DNA of 57,089 bases from Gammaproteobacteria bacterium (GTDB lineage Bacteria; Pseudomonadota; Gammaproteobacteria; S012-40): NCBI GenBank assembly GCA_919902765.1, contig CAKKRP010000015.1:1-57089 (forward strand), read 5' to 3'. The notes beneath the pieces were generated by a model. That model was not told the DNA's origin, did not search any database, and worked only from the letters and a program-made list of their open reading frames with translations. Shown here piece after piece: positions 35,978-45,737 of the stretch. Within the stretch, counting starts at the first letter, position 1; each line of letters opens with the position of its first letter. The position numbers and the translations under genes were made by a program.

Positions 35978-36850
35978 ATGAATAAAAATATCAGTTTGTC
36001 ATATGTTGTGAATGTGTCAGTGTTAGCAATACTTCCCTCGTCGGTATGGGCATTCGGAATGTTGGGTGGCAATGGAGTGATGCTTCAATCCAATCAAAAT
36101 GTTCAAGTGGGAGTTGAATTTCAGAAAATTGAAAATGCTGGATTCGCATTTGATGCTACCTCCGCGAATTTTGACGCTACCGTATATGGCAATGGTAGTG
36201 CGCGAGTTCCCGAAAACGTATCGTCATTGACGTCAGAAGTGCTATTGATACGCGGCGATTACGCAGTCTCGAACGGAATCAATTTGTTTGGAAAAGTCGG
36301 TACGACTAAGGACAAAGGAAATTTACTGCGCAGCAATCCAGGTAATCTTGTAGCGGTTGGTGCGCGTTACGTGCCGGTACAAGATAGTCTAATCAAGGTT
36401 GGTTTGTCTTTGCAGGGAATGTACGTAGGTGAAAAGGGCGCTAGGGACAGTGTCCCGGCAAATGCCACACCGACCTATGCGAATACTTCGATATATAATG
36501 CGCGCGGGAACGCGCAGGACAAGCTGCAATACCAACGCTATGATGCGTTATTAAATGTTAGTTTTGATACGCGTTACGTGACGCCATATCTCGGAATACT
36601 CTTTACTTATATCAACGGGGAATATTCGAGTAAGGTGGAGGGTAATGCAACTGCAAATACGTGTACCCCCACTTGTAGCAGCACCTCCACACATTTTATT
36701 TATACCGAGAACCGCAAGGTTAGCAATCCAAATTTAATAGGTGCGATATTTGGGATATCATTGAATCAGAATGAACAATTTGGTTTCAATTTGGAGACCC
36801 GCTTTGGCCAGGGATTCGCCTATGTAGGTTCGGCAGTGGCGCGATTCTAA
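35978..36850 (+). CDS. Outer-membrane beta-barrel-like protein
   Basis: Signal peptide (LPSSVWA|F), alternating amphipathic strands, terminal aromatic F; GGAGGG RBS. Confidence 0.6.
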   Translation: MNKNISLSYVVNVSVLAILPSSVWAFGMLGGNGVMLQSNQNVQVGVEFQKIENAGFAFDATSANFDATVYGNGSARVPENVSSLTSEVLLIRGDYAVSNGINLFGKVGTTKDKGNLLRSNPGNLVAVGARYVPVQDSLIKVGLSLQGMYVGEKGARDSVPANATPTYANTSIYNARGNAQDKLQYQRYDALLNVSFDTRYVTPYLGILFTYINGEYSSKVEGNATANTCTPTCSSTSTHFIYTENRKVSNPNLIGAIFGISLNQNEQFGFNLETRFGQGFAYVGSAVARF

Positions 36851-36900: not shown

Positions 36901-37530
36901 ATGAAAGTCGAAATCTGGTCAGATCTCATCTGCCCTTGGTGTTATATTGGAAAGCGCCGTTTTGAATCGGCGTTGGCGCAATTTGATGGCAAGAACGATG
37001 TTAAGATCGTCTGGCGCAGTTTTGAGTTAGACCCAGATGCAGACACGCAATTGAGTGAAACGCTGGTGCAATTGTTGGCCCGCAAATACGGCGTCGATGC
37101 GGCGCAAGCGGCGGCGATGAATGCGCAAGTCTCTATGCTTGCGGCCCAGGAAGGCTTGGTATACCGATTGGAAAATGCACGCCCAGGTAACACGTTAGAT
37201 GCACATCGCTTGACCCATTTTGCGCACACACAAGGTTGCGATGCACCAATGATGGAGCGCTTGATGCGCGGCTATTTTTCGGAATCACTTGCTATCGGTG
37301 AGCGTGATGCGCTGATAAAAATCGCGGACGAAATCGGTATGGACATGCATGACGTTCGCGCCATGTTTGACAGCGACGCATTTGTTGCCGAGGTGCGTGC
37401 CGATGAGCGCCGCGCCGCGCAATTGAACATACGCGGCGTGCCGTATTTTTTGATAGATGAAAAAATCGGTATTTCCGGCGCGCAATCCGTCGCGACGTTT
37501 GCTGGGGCGTTAGAGCGTGCTAAAAAGTGA
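36901..37530 (+). CDS. DsbA-family oxidoreductase, FrnE-like
   Basis: MKVEIWSDLICPWCYIGKRRFESAL; CPWC; RGVPYFLIDEKIGISGAQ. Confidence 0.88.
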   Translation: MKVEIWSDLICPWCYIGKRRFESALAQFDGKNDVKIVWRSFELDPDADTQLSETLVQLLARKYGVDAAQAAAMNAQVSMLAAQEGLVYRLENARPGNTLDAHRLTHFAHTQGCDAPMMERLMRGYFSESLAIGERDALIKIADEIGMDMHDVRAMFDSDAFVAEVRADERRAAQLNIRGVPYFLIDEKIGISGAQSVATFAGALERAKK

Positions 37531-38563
37531 CCTTTCCATAAGCCGTGGCATAGGGTGAGCCATCGCGTAATTTTTTAAATTCAAACTGAGGAAACAGTGT
37601 ACCCGTAGCGGTTGGCGTATTGAAGATAATGTCGTAGCGTTGGCCAGGGCCTACATCGAGTGATGTCATTGTTTCGGGCGTGGGCCATTGGCGGCCATCT
37701 TCGACATAGACGGTGAAGGATTTTGCGTTACCGGCGCTGTCGAGGATGCTAAAGGTGCCGTTGATAGAATGCAGACCAATTAAACGCAATGCAACTTTTG
37801 AGTTGGTCGCCGCCGTTAGTGTTGCAGCAGGAGAGACGGCAGATAGACCTTGTTCGCCGTTGATTAAGAAATATTTCGGATTGTAGTCGGCGAACACGGG
37901 GGAGTTGTCAATTGCAGTGTGATAGGCCGGATCAACTGAGCTCAAAAGATAAGTTTGAATAAAGTTGTACGCGGTCGCCGCGTCGGGGGTGAGTTGATTG
38001 AGAAAATTTCCTGTTGCGTCCTTCGGCCGAACGATCAATGGGCCATACATGCCCATTTCCAAATGTTTCACTGTGTGTACGTGGCAATGATACATATAGG
38101 TACCCGCCATTTCGGGGGTGGGACTCCAAGTGTAAGTATCGGTACCATTTCCATTTGTCACCGCGCGGCTAGTTTCTGGTACACCGTCTTCCGAGGTGGG
38201 CACATCGGCACCGTGCAGATGTATCGTGTGGCCATCATAGGGTGCATTTTCTTGGGGCGTCATCATGTTTACGTTCAGAGTTAAATTGAGAGTGTCTCCT
38301 ATGCCTACTTCTATAAGTGGGCTTGGCAACGTCGGATTAACCGCAGTATTCATCATGGCGGAGCATGGCGCGTAACCCCAAAACGTTACCGGATTTGTTG
38401 TGTTGGTTGAGGCATCGATGAGGTTTTTAGAAAATGCACCTACGCACAACGTTTTATCAATCGTCGTGGCGTTTGCGCCGAGGGATAAACCCAGTGTCAC
38501 GCAAGTCAATGTAGCGGCAGCCACGCGAGCGCGAGATGCGGAGTTAAGAGAATTTCGTGTCAT
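37520..38563 (-). CDS. Two-domain cupredoxin/multicopper-oxidase-like protein, copper ligands only in domain 1
   Basis: Signal peptide; domain 1 HTIHLHG (HxxHxH) and HCHVHTVKHLEMGM; domain 2 lacks His/Cys motifs. Confidence 0.8.
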   Translation of the reverse strand: MTRNSLNSASRARVAAATLTCVTLGLSLGANATTIDKTLCVGAFSKNLIDASTNTTNPVTFWGYAPCSAMMNTAVNPTLPSPLIEVGIGDTLNLTLNVNMMTPQENAPYDGHTIHLHGADVPTSEDGVPETSRAVTNGNGTDTYTWSPTPEMAGTYMYHCHVHTVKHLEMGMYGPLIVRPKDATGNFLNQLTPDAATAYNFIQTYLLSSVDPAYHTAIDNSPVFADYNPKYFLINGEQGLSAVSPAATLTAATNSKVALRLIGLHSINGTFSILDSAGNAKSFTVYVEDGRQWPTPETMTSLDVGPGQRYDIIFNTPTATGTLFPQFEFKKLRDGSPYATAYGKVTF

Positions 38564-38586
38564 AACAGTCTCTCCGATTCGATTTT

Positions 38587-41199
38587 TTACGGATTGATGT
38601 AAATTAAGGTAGCGACGCCATTCAGATACGTGCCGTTGGCGGTTTCCATTTGCGCAGTGTGATTGTGCATCGGGTACTTGCCCAGTTGATTTAACTTAAA
38701 TAACACCTCGACGCTACCCAAGGGCGGAACCTGTAACACGTCTAGCAATTTATATGGCGCAACGCGGCGCACCCCGTTGACGTTAATGACTTCAACGTGG
38801 TTGGCGTGGAAGTGGAAGGTCTGCGGATATTGGCCAGCATTAAGGATACGCACGAGCGCAGTTTCGCTGATACGGCCATCAATCGCTGTTTTTGCTTTAT
38901 CCAACATCGCATCTTCACCGCCCATGCCGTTGATGAGGAAGTAATTCGCTTTGTAGACGCCGGTATCGACAGTCGCTCCGGTTGCCGCAACATCGTTCCA
39001 ACGCGTTTTATCCATGTCGCCGGTGACCCATAGGCGCTGAAAGGTATAACTTGGGCCGCCGGTCCACGCAGTCGCGCCACCGGAGACGGGTGCAACGATT
39101 ATTGCGCCATATAAACCCATTTCGCGGTTGATATTGTTGTTGAGGCTATCGTAATACAAATAAGCGCCTGCATCCGTCGCCGTGAAGGTGTAGGTCTTGC
39201 TGGCGCCGGGCGCGACGGCGGTGATATCCGTGGCGATGCCTTTTACAACAAAGTTATGATCTAGTGTATGGTCGTTTTGTAGGGTGACGTTGACAGTGTC
39301 GCCCTCGGTGACATTGAGCACCGGCCCTGGGAATTTCGGAGTGGTTGCAACATCGGTGTAACTCCATGCCGGGATGGCCGCGCCGCCACCGCCATTGACG
39401 GTGAGCGTGCCGGGTTTGATATATAAAGTGAAGTTGCGCGTGCCTGGGGTCGGCGCGATGGCGACGAAGTCGGTTGCGCTGACATTTGCGCCAGTGATCG
39501 TGACGCTTGCCGTTGCCGGTGTAAAACTGTATCCAGATAGGTTAGGCGTAAGCGTATAGGCGCCATTGCTTAAACCGCTAAACGAATAATCGCCACTCGT
39601 ATCGCTGGTCGTGGTCGTGGCGCCGAGCGTGACGGCGACGCCGCTGACCGCGACACCGCTGCTATTGGCGATCTTGCCGGAAATTGTATACGTGGCTGCC
39701 GACGCAGGCGGTGTACCCGAGAAATTCGTATTGGACACATCGGCGCCATTGACAGTGACCGCGATATTGGTTGGCGCAAAGGTATAGCCGGTCAACGCCG
39801 GTGTGACCGTGTAACTGCCGTTCACCAAGTTGGTAAAGCTATAATTGCCGCTGGCGTCGGCGGTTGTGGATGCCGTTGCAGTACCGCTTAGGCTGACCGT
39901 TGCGCCGCTGACGGCAGTGCCTGTCCCTGAGGTAATTTGCCCGGTGATGGTATATGTCGCCGTTGGTGGCAGCGCGCCGCTGAAGTCGATAGCGCCAACA
40001 TTGGCTGCGGTGATGGCGATGGTTTGCGTGGTCGGTGTGAACGTATATCCGCTTAAGTTAGGCGCTACCGTATAGGTGCCTGCCACTAGTCCGGTGAAGG
40101 TATAGTTGCCTGTATTGTTGCTCATTGCAGTCTTGGTGGCAGCGCCGCTGAGCGCGAGGGTCACGCCGTTGATAGCGGTGCCGTTCGCGTTGGTGACGCG
40201 ACCGGATAAGGTATAGGTGGGGGGCGGTGGGGGCGTACCTACATAATTTATGCCCGCGACATTGGCATTATTGAGCGTTGCGGTGCGGTTGCTGGGCACG
40301 AAGGAATAGCCGGTCAAGCTGGGAGTGACCGTGTAGACACCGTTGTTGAGTCCAGAAATTATGTAATTGCCGTTGGCATCGGTGGTGACGCTACCCGTAC
40401 CGCCGCCGCTCAGTGTCAGCGTGACGCCGTTGATACCGGAACCGCTACTGGTAGCGATATTACCGGCGATGCTATAGGTGGTCGTGGTGGCCACTGGTGC
40501 GGTGGTGAAATTGAGCGCATTCGCTGAGGCGCGCGTGATGTTGACCGCGCGGCTGACCGGGGTGAAGGAGGTGTTTGTTTGCGCGGGGGTGACGGTGTAT
40601 GCGCCGACAGCAAGCCCCGTGAAGGTGTAGCGGCCGCTGGTATTAGTCGTGGTGCTCATCGTTGCAGAACCGCTAAGTGCTATGATGACGCCGCTCACGG
40701 GGGCATTGGTACCATCGACGATAAGCCCGGAAATATTAAATGTGGTTGTCGGCGGTGGCGTGGTGGTACCGGGAGGCGTTGGTGTAGTGGGCATCGAGCC
40801 CACACAATTGATGTTCGCGACAGACGCCCGATTGATGCTCATGGTTCTTTGCAGGACTGCGAATTTGTATTTGTCAGAATGAGTGGCGATGGCATAATCG
40901 CCGTTGGCGAGGCCCTCAAAAATATAATACCCTTTTGCATCTGAGGTGGTGGTGGCCGATGTGGTGCCGCTCAAAACGACGGTCACGCCTTGCAACGGCG
41001 CGCCTGCGTCATCGGTGACAACGCCGGAGATACTATAGCTATTGGTGGCGCTAGCTCCTCGGCCGGTGGTCGGTTCTTGCGGGCAACCCGCCAACATCAA
41101 TGCCGCTAACAAGGTGATTCCGAGTTGGTAAATTTTACCCAACCCGCCATTGGATCTTCGTTGGGAACTATAGATGTAACGCCGCATCATTTTTTGCAT
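38587..41199 (-). CDS. Lipoprotein with six CarboxypepD_reg/Ig-like repeats fused to two-domain cupredoxin, copper-like ligands only in last domain
   Basis: Lipobox LMLAGC; six ~80-aa repeats (Y-[ST]-[IL]-[SAT]-G...GVT..LSG...GNY.F.GL.NG.YTVTP...); C-term FHFHANH and MHNHTAQM; upstream GGGG-rich RBS for ATG 41199. Confidence 0.75.
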   Translation of the reverse strand: MQKMMRRYIYSSQRRSNGGLGKIYQLGITLLAALMLAGCPQEPTTGRGASATNSYSISGVVTDDAGAPLQGVTVVLSGTTSATTTSDAKGYYIFEGLANGDYAIATHSDKYKFAVLQRTMSINRASVANINCVGSMPTTPTPPGTTTPPPTTTFNISGLIVDGTNAPVSGVIIALSGSATMSTTTNTSGRYTFTGLAVGAYTVTPAQTNTSFTPVSRAVNITRASANALNFTTAPVATTTTYSIAGNIATSSGSGINGVTLTLSGGGTGSVTTDANGNYIISGLNNGVYTVTPSLTGYSFVPSNRTATLNNANVAGINYVGTPPPPPTYTLSGRVTNANGTAINGVTLALSGAATKTAMSNNTGNYTFTGLVAGTYTVAPNLSGYTFTPTTQTIAITAANVGAIDFSGALPPTATYTITGQITSGTGTAVSGATVSLSGTATASTTADASGNYSFTNLVNGSYTVTPALTGYTFAPTNIAVTVNGADVSNTNFSGTPPASAATYTISGKIANSSGVAVSGVAVTLGATTTTSDTSGDYSFSGLSNGAYTLTPNLSGYSFTPATASVTITGANVSATDFVAIAPTPGTRNFTLYIKPGTLTVNGGGGAAIPAWSYTDVATTPKFPGPVLNVTEGDTVNVTLQNDHTLDHNFVVKGIATDITAVAPGASKTYTFTATDAGAYLYYDSLNNNINREMGLYGAIIVAPVSGGATAWTGGPSYTFQRLWVTGDMDKTRWNDVAATGATVDTGVYKANYFLINGMGGEDAMLDKAKTAIDGRISETALVRILNAGQYPQTFHFHANHVEVINVNGVRRVAPYKLLDVLQVPPLGSVEVLFKLNQLGKYPMHNHTAQMETANGTYLNGVATLIYINP
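39460..41037 (-). repeat. Six tandem CarboxypepD_reg/Ig-like protein repeats
   Basis: Six internally similar ~80-aa units in the translated ORF, beginning YSISGVV, FNISGLI, YSIAGNI, YTLSGRV, YTITGQI, YTISGKI. Confidence 0.85.
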
Positions 41200-41725
41200 C
41201 GCCCCGTTCCCCATGTATGGACATAGACAGATTCCCTGCCGTTGCAGTGTAGGGTGAATATGATGTTGCGCGTGGCAACACATGACATTAATTTCACCCT
41301 GCGTAAAATCCGTGAATAACGTTATGATAATTAGACTGTGCTGTCGTGCGTTAGCAACAGACCGTGGTGTTTCGTTCTATGTGATAAAGTAATTAACCGT
41401 CACCATGACGACAGATGCTAGGTGTTTGGGCGACGATAAACAATGCCGAATTATATGTTTTATCATACCCCGAGTCAAACGCTGGGCTATATACCTTGTG
41501 AATAACGCAAATTACATGTTCTTCCCATTCATAGCCTACGCATTCGCTATTTATTTTAAAAATGAACGATCTAATACTTGCGCATGTCCATTAAATTCCA
41601 CTTAATATACGCACGCGTTGTTTTAAGGGGTTAATTCAATTTATTAATGGGCTTCAATGACGGTGAACCGCCAATGTTTACGAGTGCGCGTTGAGCCTTG
41701 TGTAAATACTGTTTACGATGAACAC

Positions 41726-43877: not shown

Positions 43878-43895
43878 CATTACGAAATTGTAATG
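43878..43895. promoter_or_regulatory. Putative CusR/CopR operator in divergent promoter
   Basis: CATTAC-GAAATT-GTAATG perfect inverted repeat between divergent RR and copA. Confidence 0.65.
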
Positions 43896-43997
43896 TACAT
43901 GTCACGCCAAGGACAGGGGCGTATTGCTATCATGCATGTAAATAAACCGGTGCATGGCCGGTTCGATGTTGGTTCTTCACTTGAGGATAAATTCGGA

Positions 43998-45737
43998 ATG
44001 AGACGAACTCCCCCTGGCACTTGTGTGTTACCCAGTATGGCGCGCCGCCGCTTCATGCAAGGCCTCGCTGCGGGCGGTGTCATGGCCGGTTTGTCGCCTT
44101 GGATCAAACCAAGTTGGGCAGCGCAAGCGGCTGTAACTGCAACGGGTGCCGCACTGGTGTTGAGCGGCACCGAATTCGATCTCATAATCGACGAAACACT
44201 TGTCAATTATACTGGCGCGCCGCATATGGCGACGACCGTCAACGGTTCACTTCCGGCGCCGACCTTGCGCTGGCGCGAAGGCGATACGGTCAGCTTGCGT
44301 GTCACCAACCGATTGCGAGAAATGACCGCGATACATTGGCATGGCATTATTTTGCCGTATCAAATGGATGGCGTACCAGGGATCAGCTATCGCGGTATCG
44401 CGCCTGGAGAGACATTTACGCATCGCTTCACGGTGCGTCAGTCAGGCACTTATTGGTATCATGCCCATACGATGGCCGAACAAACCGGCTTGTATGGCGC
44501 TATCATCATCGATCCCGCGCAGGGGGATGGCACGCGCACAGGCCGCGATTATGTGGTGCAACTCTCGGATTGGACCGACGATGATCCATTGTCGGTGCTT
44601 AAGAAGCTCCACAAACAAAGCGATTATTATAATTTCAGCCAACCGACCGCAGTCGATTTTTTACGCGATGCCGCCACCAACAGCGTGTCCGTCGCCGTAG
44701 CCAAGCGTGAGATGTGGAATCAGATGCGGATGAATCCGACAGACCTGGCGGATATCTCCGGCTACACCTACACCTATTTGATGAACGGCACCACGCCGGC
44801 GGGCAATTGGACGGGGGTGTTTAATCCCGGTGAACGCGTGCGGTTGCGGTTTATTAACGCAGGTTCGGCGAGTTTTTTTGATGTACGCATCCCTGGTTTG
44901 GCGATGACCGTCATTGCGAGCGATGGTCAGGGCGTCGAGCCTGTCACAGTGGACGAATTTCGTATAGGCGCGGGCGAGACCTACGATGTATTGGTCAGCC
45001 CCAAAGACATCGCGTATACGATTTTCGCGCAGTCCATGGATCGCAGCGGTTATGCGCGCGGCACACTCGCACCCCGCGCCGGTTTGTCCGCAGACGTGCC
45101 TGCGGTAGATAAACTCGAATGGTTGACGATGGGCGATATGATGGGGGCTATGACGCATGCTATGGGTGGAATGGATCATGGTGGCCACGCGACAATGACG
45201 CCGGGCAATGCGTCTCCACAAGTGCGCCACGCGAGCAGCGAATTCGGTCCCCGTGTAGACATGCGTGTCGATACGCCGCGCACCAATCTCGACGACCCCG
45301 GCATTGGTTTGCGCAATAACGGTCGTCGTGTGTTGACCTATGCGGATTTACACACGCTAGGCGGCGCGATGGATGCGCGCGACGCGGGGCGCGAGATTGA
45401 ATTACATTTGACCGGCAATATGGAACGTTATGCCTGGTCTATTGATGGCCTGGAATTCGGTAAATCTACCCCTATCCACTTTCGTCATAACGAACGCTTG
45501 CGCGTGATTTTGCACAACGACACAATGATGACACATCCTATGCACTTGCACGGTATGTGGAGCGAGTTATTAGATGCGCAAGGAAAATTTTTAGCGCGCA
45601 AACACACCATCAATGTACAGCCGGCGCAACGGGTCGGTTTTCTGGTCACTGCTGACGCATTGGGCCACTGGGCATGGCATTGTCATTTGCTGTATCACAT
45701 GGCCGCAGGTATGTTTAGGCAAGTGGTCGTCGCGTGA
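43998..45737 (+). CDS. copA: Copper resistance multicopper oxidase CopA/PcoA (Tat-exported)
   Basis: Tat signal ARRRFMQGLAAGG; IHWHG; YWYHAHTMAEQTGLYGAI; MTHPMHLHG; AWHCHLLYHMAAGMFRQV; Met-rich MGDMMGAMTHAMGGMDHGGH. Confidence 0.94.
   Translation: MRRTPPGTCVLPSMARRRFMQGLAAGGVMAGLSPWIKPSWAAQAAVTATGAALVLSGTEFDLIIDETLVNYTGAPHMATTVNGSLPAPTLRWREGDTVSLRVTNRLREMTAIHWHGIILPYQMDGVPGISYRGIAPGETFTHRFTVRQSGTYWYHAHTMAEQTGLYGAIIIDPAQGDGTRTGRDYVVQLSDWTDDDPLSVLKKLHKQSDYYNFSQPTAVDFLRDAATNSVSVAVAKREMWNQMRMNPTDLADISGYTYTYLMNGTTPAGNWTGVFNPGERVRLRFINAGSASFFDVRIPGLAMTVIASDGQGVEPVTVDEFRIGAGETYDVLVSPKDIAYTIFAQSMDRSGYARGTLAPRAGLSADVPAVDKLEWLTMGDMMGAMTHAMGGMDHGGHATMTPGNASPQVRHASSEFGPRVDMRVDTPRTNLDDPGIGLRNNGRRVLTYADLHTLGGAMDARDAGREIELHLTGNMERYAWSIDGLEFGKSTPIHFRHNERLRVILHNDTMMTHPMHLHGMWSELLDAQGKFLARKHTINVQPAQRVGFLVTADALGHWAWHCHLLYHMAAGMFRQVVVA

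Follow-up and report, generated by a model that had tools for sequence, protein, structure and literature searches.

Two adjacent genes in the genome of a gammaproteobacterium of the GTDB lineage S012-40 (assembly GCA_919902765.1, contig CAKKRP010000015.1, positions 1 to 57,089; this whole stretch of 57,089 nucleotides is referred to below as the window) encode two-cupredoxin proteins, denoted A and B, that probably (at a probability of roughly 0.83) form a single exported multicopper oxidase (MCO) as subunits that each require the other, and for which copper loading and oxidase activity are predicted. The ligand set of the MCO superfamily, consisting of the His, Cys, His and Met of the type-1 (T1) copper site and the eight His of the trinuclear copper cluster (TNC), is complete only for A and B jointly. 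We infer the physical A-B complex, its copper loading and its oxidase activity from the ligand pattern, the adjacency, conservation and co-distribution of the two genes, and an asymmetry of export signals among their relatives.

Complementary copper ligands in adjacent cupredoxin proteins

Both genes lie on the minus strand of the window, and their open reading frames (ORFs) are separated by 23 bases. Subunit A (37520-38563, minus strand; 347 aa) has a Sec signal followed by a two-cupredoxin MCO protein; subunit B (38587-41283, minus strand; 898 aa as the longest ORF) combines a lipoprotein signal, repeats, and a C-terminal two-cupredoxin MCO part (residues 605-898; 38590-39471, minus strand). 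The extent first annotated for B, 38587-41199, differs from the longest ORF in its start, but a start at 41199 is no less plausible and yields a better lipoprotein signal than the one at 41283.

The roles of individual residues were assigned by alignment to complete two-domain oxidases. Domain 1 of A contains a complete T1 site (H112, C160, H167, and M172) and four TNC His (H115, H117, H159, and H161), which are located in the motifs HTIHLH (38213-38230, minus strand; H112, H115, and H117) and HCHVHTVKHLEMGM (38048-38089, minus strand), the latter with H159-C160-H161 at 38089-38081, followed by H167 and by M172 at 38050-38048. Domain 2 of A carries no ligands. In B, domain 1 is degenerate (DHNFVVKG, YYDSLNNNINREMG) and empty of copper ligands, and domain 2 supplies the other four TNC His, the first two (38814-38806) in the motif HFHANH (38797-38814, minus strand), which includes one more invariant His, and the final two in the motif MHNH (38659-38670, minus strand), which is devoid of Cys. 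The initial annotation had described A and B as a complementary cupredoxin pair sharing eight TNC His and one T1 site; re-reading of the sequence reproduced the ORFs, ligands and coordinates, and the alignment agreed with the ligand count. Both proteins also match Pfam families of copper oxidases above the curated cut-offs (A: Cu-oxidase_3, 55.1 bits, Cu-oxidase_2, 33.2 bits, and Cu-oxidase, 25.0 bits; B: Cu-oxidase family matches of 45.1 and 43.8 bits).

Conservation and history of the reciprocal split

With each species represented by a single genome, nine proteins closely related to A were found (L020-L028; 40-64% identity), and in 9/9 cases a B gene is located directly upstream of A on the same strand, with all ligands kept. 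Extension of the family by searches of whole genomes and of plasmids brought the collection to 55 loci, namely 36 with a B-A pair, falling into three sequence groups (I, the window type, II, and III), and 19 with an A-B-C trio (group IV) from Planctomycetota, Myxococcota, and Pseudomonadota. The third protein of the trios, C, likewise has two domains but carries no copper ligand. Gene order and adjacency are the same in every pair locus (B-A, 36/36) and in every trio locus (A-B-C, 19/19), with small gaps between the genes, although in a few trio loci C is cut by the contig end. Thus, co-occurring adjacent homologues with the same reciprocal loss, of the kind implied by the initial annotation, do exist, and no solitary A or B was found among the 55 loci except at contig ends. 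In a class-wide sample, 25 of 369 genomes match A at an E value of 1e-20 or better, and the family is rare in a phylum-wide sample consisting mainly of other lineages.

Several loci that first appeared to be solitary turned out to be otherwise. The candidate L110 holds the tail of an A gene whose remainder, L109, lies on the other side of a contig break, and L072 and L100 both lie at contig ends of a single genome (G048), where two tandem A copies, one with a twin-arginine lipoprotein signal and one without a signal, occupy one contig end and B occupies another, possibly as an A-A'-B system. The isolated gene of the phylum-wide sample (L122; 6093-8099, minus strand) is a complete two-domain oxidase standing alone, with an extra C-terminal cupredoxin carrying HCHVET, rather than a solitary A or B. 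One group III A gene at a contig start (L096, 17-784) contains in-frame stops and is either a pseudogene or an assembly error. The trio loci (L029-L036, L101-L106, L108, L116, and L123) vary in their surroundings and protein lengths: several encode an SdrD_B-like protein of 1.65-1.7 k aa upstream of A, the A ORFs of 1548 aa (L031) and 2347 aa (L102) may be fusions, and C is lengthened by cadherin-like repeats in L035 or to 1985-2784 aa in L106 and L108. Downstream of the trio, L035 encodes a subtilase with cadherin repeats and a cytochrome c, and L029 encodes a sigma-70 factor.

The partition of ligands is invariant. In an alignment of 52 A, 51 B, 15 C and 8 complete oxidases, 52/52 A have the full set of eight domain-1 ligands and lack the domain-2 TNC His, and the domain-2 TNC His are present in 51/51 B (one of which, L076, is truncated), with neither a T1 Cys nor the domain-1 ligand set in any of them. 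The C proteins lack both the T1 Cys and the TNC ligand set (15/15), and the complete oxidases have the full set (8/8). Such invariance, which runs counter to any suspicion that the ligands might not be conserved in orthologous pairs, indicates that the A/B pattern did not arise by chance, and because the reciprocal split is kept in more than 50 gene sets of several phyla, it argues for an obligate assembly of A with B. In groups I-III, the ligand-bearing domain is better conserved than the other domain in both A and B, although the effect is modest.

In a tree computed with the ligand columns removed, groups I-III contribute one clade of A proteins (support 90) and one of B proteins (99), the trio A proteins form a third clade (100), and the trio B and C proteins are sisters (95). 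Both a single and a double origin of the A/B split fit this topology. Duplication with reciprocal ligand loss, as envisaged in the initial annotation, is likely the history of A and B, with the tree compatible with one such event or two. Within paired loci, the distances among A proteins parallel those among B proteins (r = 0.90, 31 loci, 0/2000 permutations), as expected of inherited pairs.

Asymmetry of export signals

Evidence separate from the copper ligands comes from the predicted export signals. In group III, a twin-arginine (Tat) signal of the RRxFLK type is present on 14/14 B and a signal peptide on 0/15 A; because A starts shortly after the B stop codon, a hidden signal on A would not fit in most cases. 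In group II, every B has a Tat signal and four A have no signal, and in groups I and IV, A and B mostly each carry a signal of their own. The Tat pathway transports folded proteins. Export through it of signal-less partners complexed with a signal-bearing subunit is established (PMC4273604, PMC10924467). Hence, unless the group III A remains cytoplasmic, it would have to be bound to B before export, and the predicted signals in this group imply co-export of A and B as a folded complex. The obligate hetero-oligomer proposed in the initial annotation, although still inferred, thereby gains fresh support.

A modeled B-A arrangement resembling a cupredoxin ring

In one relative (L023; A 62% and B 59% identical to the window proteins), B and A are in frame, and the B-linker-A read-through was used as input for AlphaFold2. 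The resulting model has a predicted TM score (pTM) of 0.87 and a mean predicted local distance difference test score (pLDDT) of 87.5, with pLDDT values under 50 confined to the linker (291-322) and a three-residue loop. In Foldseek searches, the whole model matched, in chain order, four domains of coagulation factors V/VIII, which were the top matches, ceruloplasmin and MnxG (TMq 0.53-0.63, root-mean-square deviation [rmsd] of about 7-10 Å), including TMq 0.58-0.61 with rmsd 7.4-7.6 Å for ceruloplasmin and TMq 0.63 with rmsd 9.1 Å for MnxG. Three-domain laccases fit badly (rmsd 13-18 Å). A pTM of 0.87 would not be expected from an arbitrary placement of the two halves, and together with the order of the Foldseek matches it points to B domain 2 and A domain 1 being neighbors. 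In the model, these two domains are placed like consecutive domains of a six-cupredoxin ring, and their contact may be of the kind that bears the TNC; the two ligand sets would then not be far apart.

The B stalk and the surroundings of the window pair

The N-terminal two thirds of the window B consist of a lipobox (LMLAGC) followed by six CarboxypepD_reg (TTR-like) repeats identified with Pfam (39486-41034, minus strand), a probable stalk, and the combination of lipid anchor and repeats suggests a surface or periplasmic tether. Among the group I relatives, only the B of L098 (702-4058; 1119 aa) is comparably long, the others having 270-389 aa. A promoter-like site (TTGACT-17-TATAAT, 11/12; 41450-41478, minus strand) upstream of B is a consensus match only, the count of such sites not being above that in shuffled sequences, and no CusR-like operator above chance was found upstream of B.

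The pair adjoins genes for a two-component pair, copA, copB, a copper ATPase, and cusCBA, with CopA proper encoded at 43893-45737. A gene for a DsbA-like thioredoxin (36901-37530, plus strand) is convergent with A, the two sharing 11 bases at the 3' end of A, and the product of the gene beside it (35978-36850, plus strand), a protein of 290 aa, has no Pfam match and resembles an outer-membrane protein. Copper genes (cusA or that of the ATPase) were also found near a few other loci, but most pair loci have none nearby, and no conserved gene neighborhood of the pair loci was found apart from A and B themselves. Given the copper-resistance genes adjoining the window pair, Cu(I) is a reasonable first guess for the substrate in group I, in copper defense, and no more than that. 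A third MCO-like subunit was sought in the same genome and rejected, the remaining Cu-oxidase_3 matches being CopA, a complete two-domain oxidase, a NirK-like protein and an unrelated partial match. Another contig of this genome (C3; L095, 648-6400) encodes a complete type-C two-domain oxidase and small cytochrome-like proteins, with a NirK-like two-domain protein followed by CusB/CusA homologues.

Proposed mechanism and alternative explanations

As two obligate subunits of one oxidase, A and B would assemble such that domain 1 of A packs onto domain 2 of B in a ring of two-cupredoxin units and the two jointly bind the TNC. Electrons from the substrate would enter at the T1 copper of A and run along the His-Cys-His pathway, and O2 would be reduced to water at the cluster shared by A and B. 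The remaining domain of each protein, stripped of ligands, would retain a structural role, and in the window B the lipid anchor and repeats would form a tether with a stalk. If the ring consists of three units, as it does in homotrimers, a third unit is needed, and in the trio this role would most naturally fall to C, which is ligand-free and never missing from a locus whose contig extends far enough. A broader proposal, to which we give somewhat better than even odds, is that these proteins represent a genetically split class of MCOs in which a ceruloplasmin-type ring is built from the products of two or three genes: A and B would share a single site, ligand-free C would close an ABC heterotrimer, a second A or B would replace C in the pairs, and in group III, A would be carried through the Tat pore by B.

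Several points weigh against joint assembly of A and B. The export-signal argument rests on relatives, the window A and B both having signals of their own. One A and one B cannot fill a ring of three, leaving the stoichiometry of the pairs unexplained. The covalent read-through could bias the placement of A and B in the model. An analogous AlphaFold2 model of a trio A-B-C read-through (L034) had a pTM of 0.40 and an rmsd of 27 Å and offered no usable arrangement, although this poor result also indicates that a good fit to a ring cannot be taken for granted. Finally, plain vertical descent would give the same correlation of A and B distances.

Among the alternatives, the least improbable, yet in our judgment unlikely, is that A and B form separate homotrimers, each with half of the TNC ligands, A being a T1/type-2 copper protein similar to NirK or an electron carrier and B its copper-binding partner. 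The mononuclear type-2 site of NirK needs few His, and the NirK model TIGR02376 does match A and the MCO part of B weakly (39.6 and 62.7 bits, respectively). However, these scores are far below the cut-off of 296.3 bits, which led us to reject a NirK identity for either protein, and separate homotrimers sit poorly with eight TNC His that are invariant though split over two genes, with the lack of solitary copies, and with the signal-less A of group III.

Less probable again is that A and B assemble not as an O2-reducing oxidase but as a complex that stores, delivers or senses copper. Such a complex would suit the position of the window pair amid copper-resistance and two-component genes, and the CusA or ATPase genes at some other loci, but full T1 and TNC sets, unnecessary for storage, are kept at every locus, and at most pair loci copper genes are not nearby. 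A recent origin of the pair by duplication and decay of an ordinary homotrimeric two-domain oxidase, which the ligand-free domain in each protein and the existence of complete two-domain oxidases (one, L002, in the same genome) might suggest, can be virtually discounted, the ligand pattern being ancient and invariant over groups and phyla and the ligand-bearing domains being, if modestly, the better conserved ones. Two obligate subunits of a single oxidase thus remain the reading that we favor.

Comparison with known multicopper oxidases

The TNC ligands of homotrimeric two-domain oxidases come from domain 1 of one monomer together with domain 2 of its neighbor (PMC13151041), an interface that A and B would suit if A domain 1 meets B domain 2. 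The closest parallel is with the type C enzymes of this class, with which A and B share two cupredoxins per chain, a T1 site in the N-terminal domain (found by alignment in A), and a TNC expected between chains. However, each polypeptide of a type C homotrimer contains every ligand, and the trimer has three sites, whereas the A/B ligands are distributed over two genes, which would give one site per pair. Neither protein has the complete T1 and TNC set in a single two-domain chain, A lacking the domain-2 TNC His and B a functional domain-1 set, which places them outside the two-domain class as described. Like NirK, with its T1 copper in domain 1 and a metal site at the interface between domain 1 and domain 2 of the neighboring subunit in the trimer, A has the T1 site in domain 1, but instead of the ligands of a mononuclear type-2 site it has HCH and HxH, as in oxidases. 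CopA/PcoA, a copper-resistance MCO, carries all cupredoxin domains in one chain, unlike A and B, and an identity with it was rejected (TIGR01480: 50.9 bits for A and 27.1 bits for B, against a cut-off of 478.95). In NCBIfam as a whole, no family scored above its cut-off for A or B, so that search models built on complete motifs would overlook or misannotate such oxidases.

Coagulation factors V/VIII are rings of two-cupredoxin units that come to comprise more than one chain after proteolysis; they are not oxidases and are cut after translation, whereas A and B are encoded as separate genes. The likeness to ceruloplasmin and MnxG, both of them rings of paired cupredoxins that have lost most of their metal sites and retain one TNC, lies in the superposition of the B-A model on four consecutive domains, and the difference in the chains, which have six domains in ceruloplasmin and MnxG and two in A and B. 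Bacterial six-domain oxidases carry the T1 site in domain 2, with the TNC at the junction of domains 2 and 3 (PMC3600357); a simple fission of MnxG into A and B was rejected, as the T1 side falls on the opposite partner. In the literature searched, composed of papers available without subscription, no description of a heteromeric or split MCO was found: two-domain MCOs are described as homotrimers and six-domain MCOs as single chains. An O2-reducing cluster shared by the products of two genes would therefore represent a new quaternary type, and the A/B family would be well suited for testing how a ring that originally had three active sites can keep a single one, as has been proposed for ceruloplasmin.

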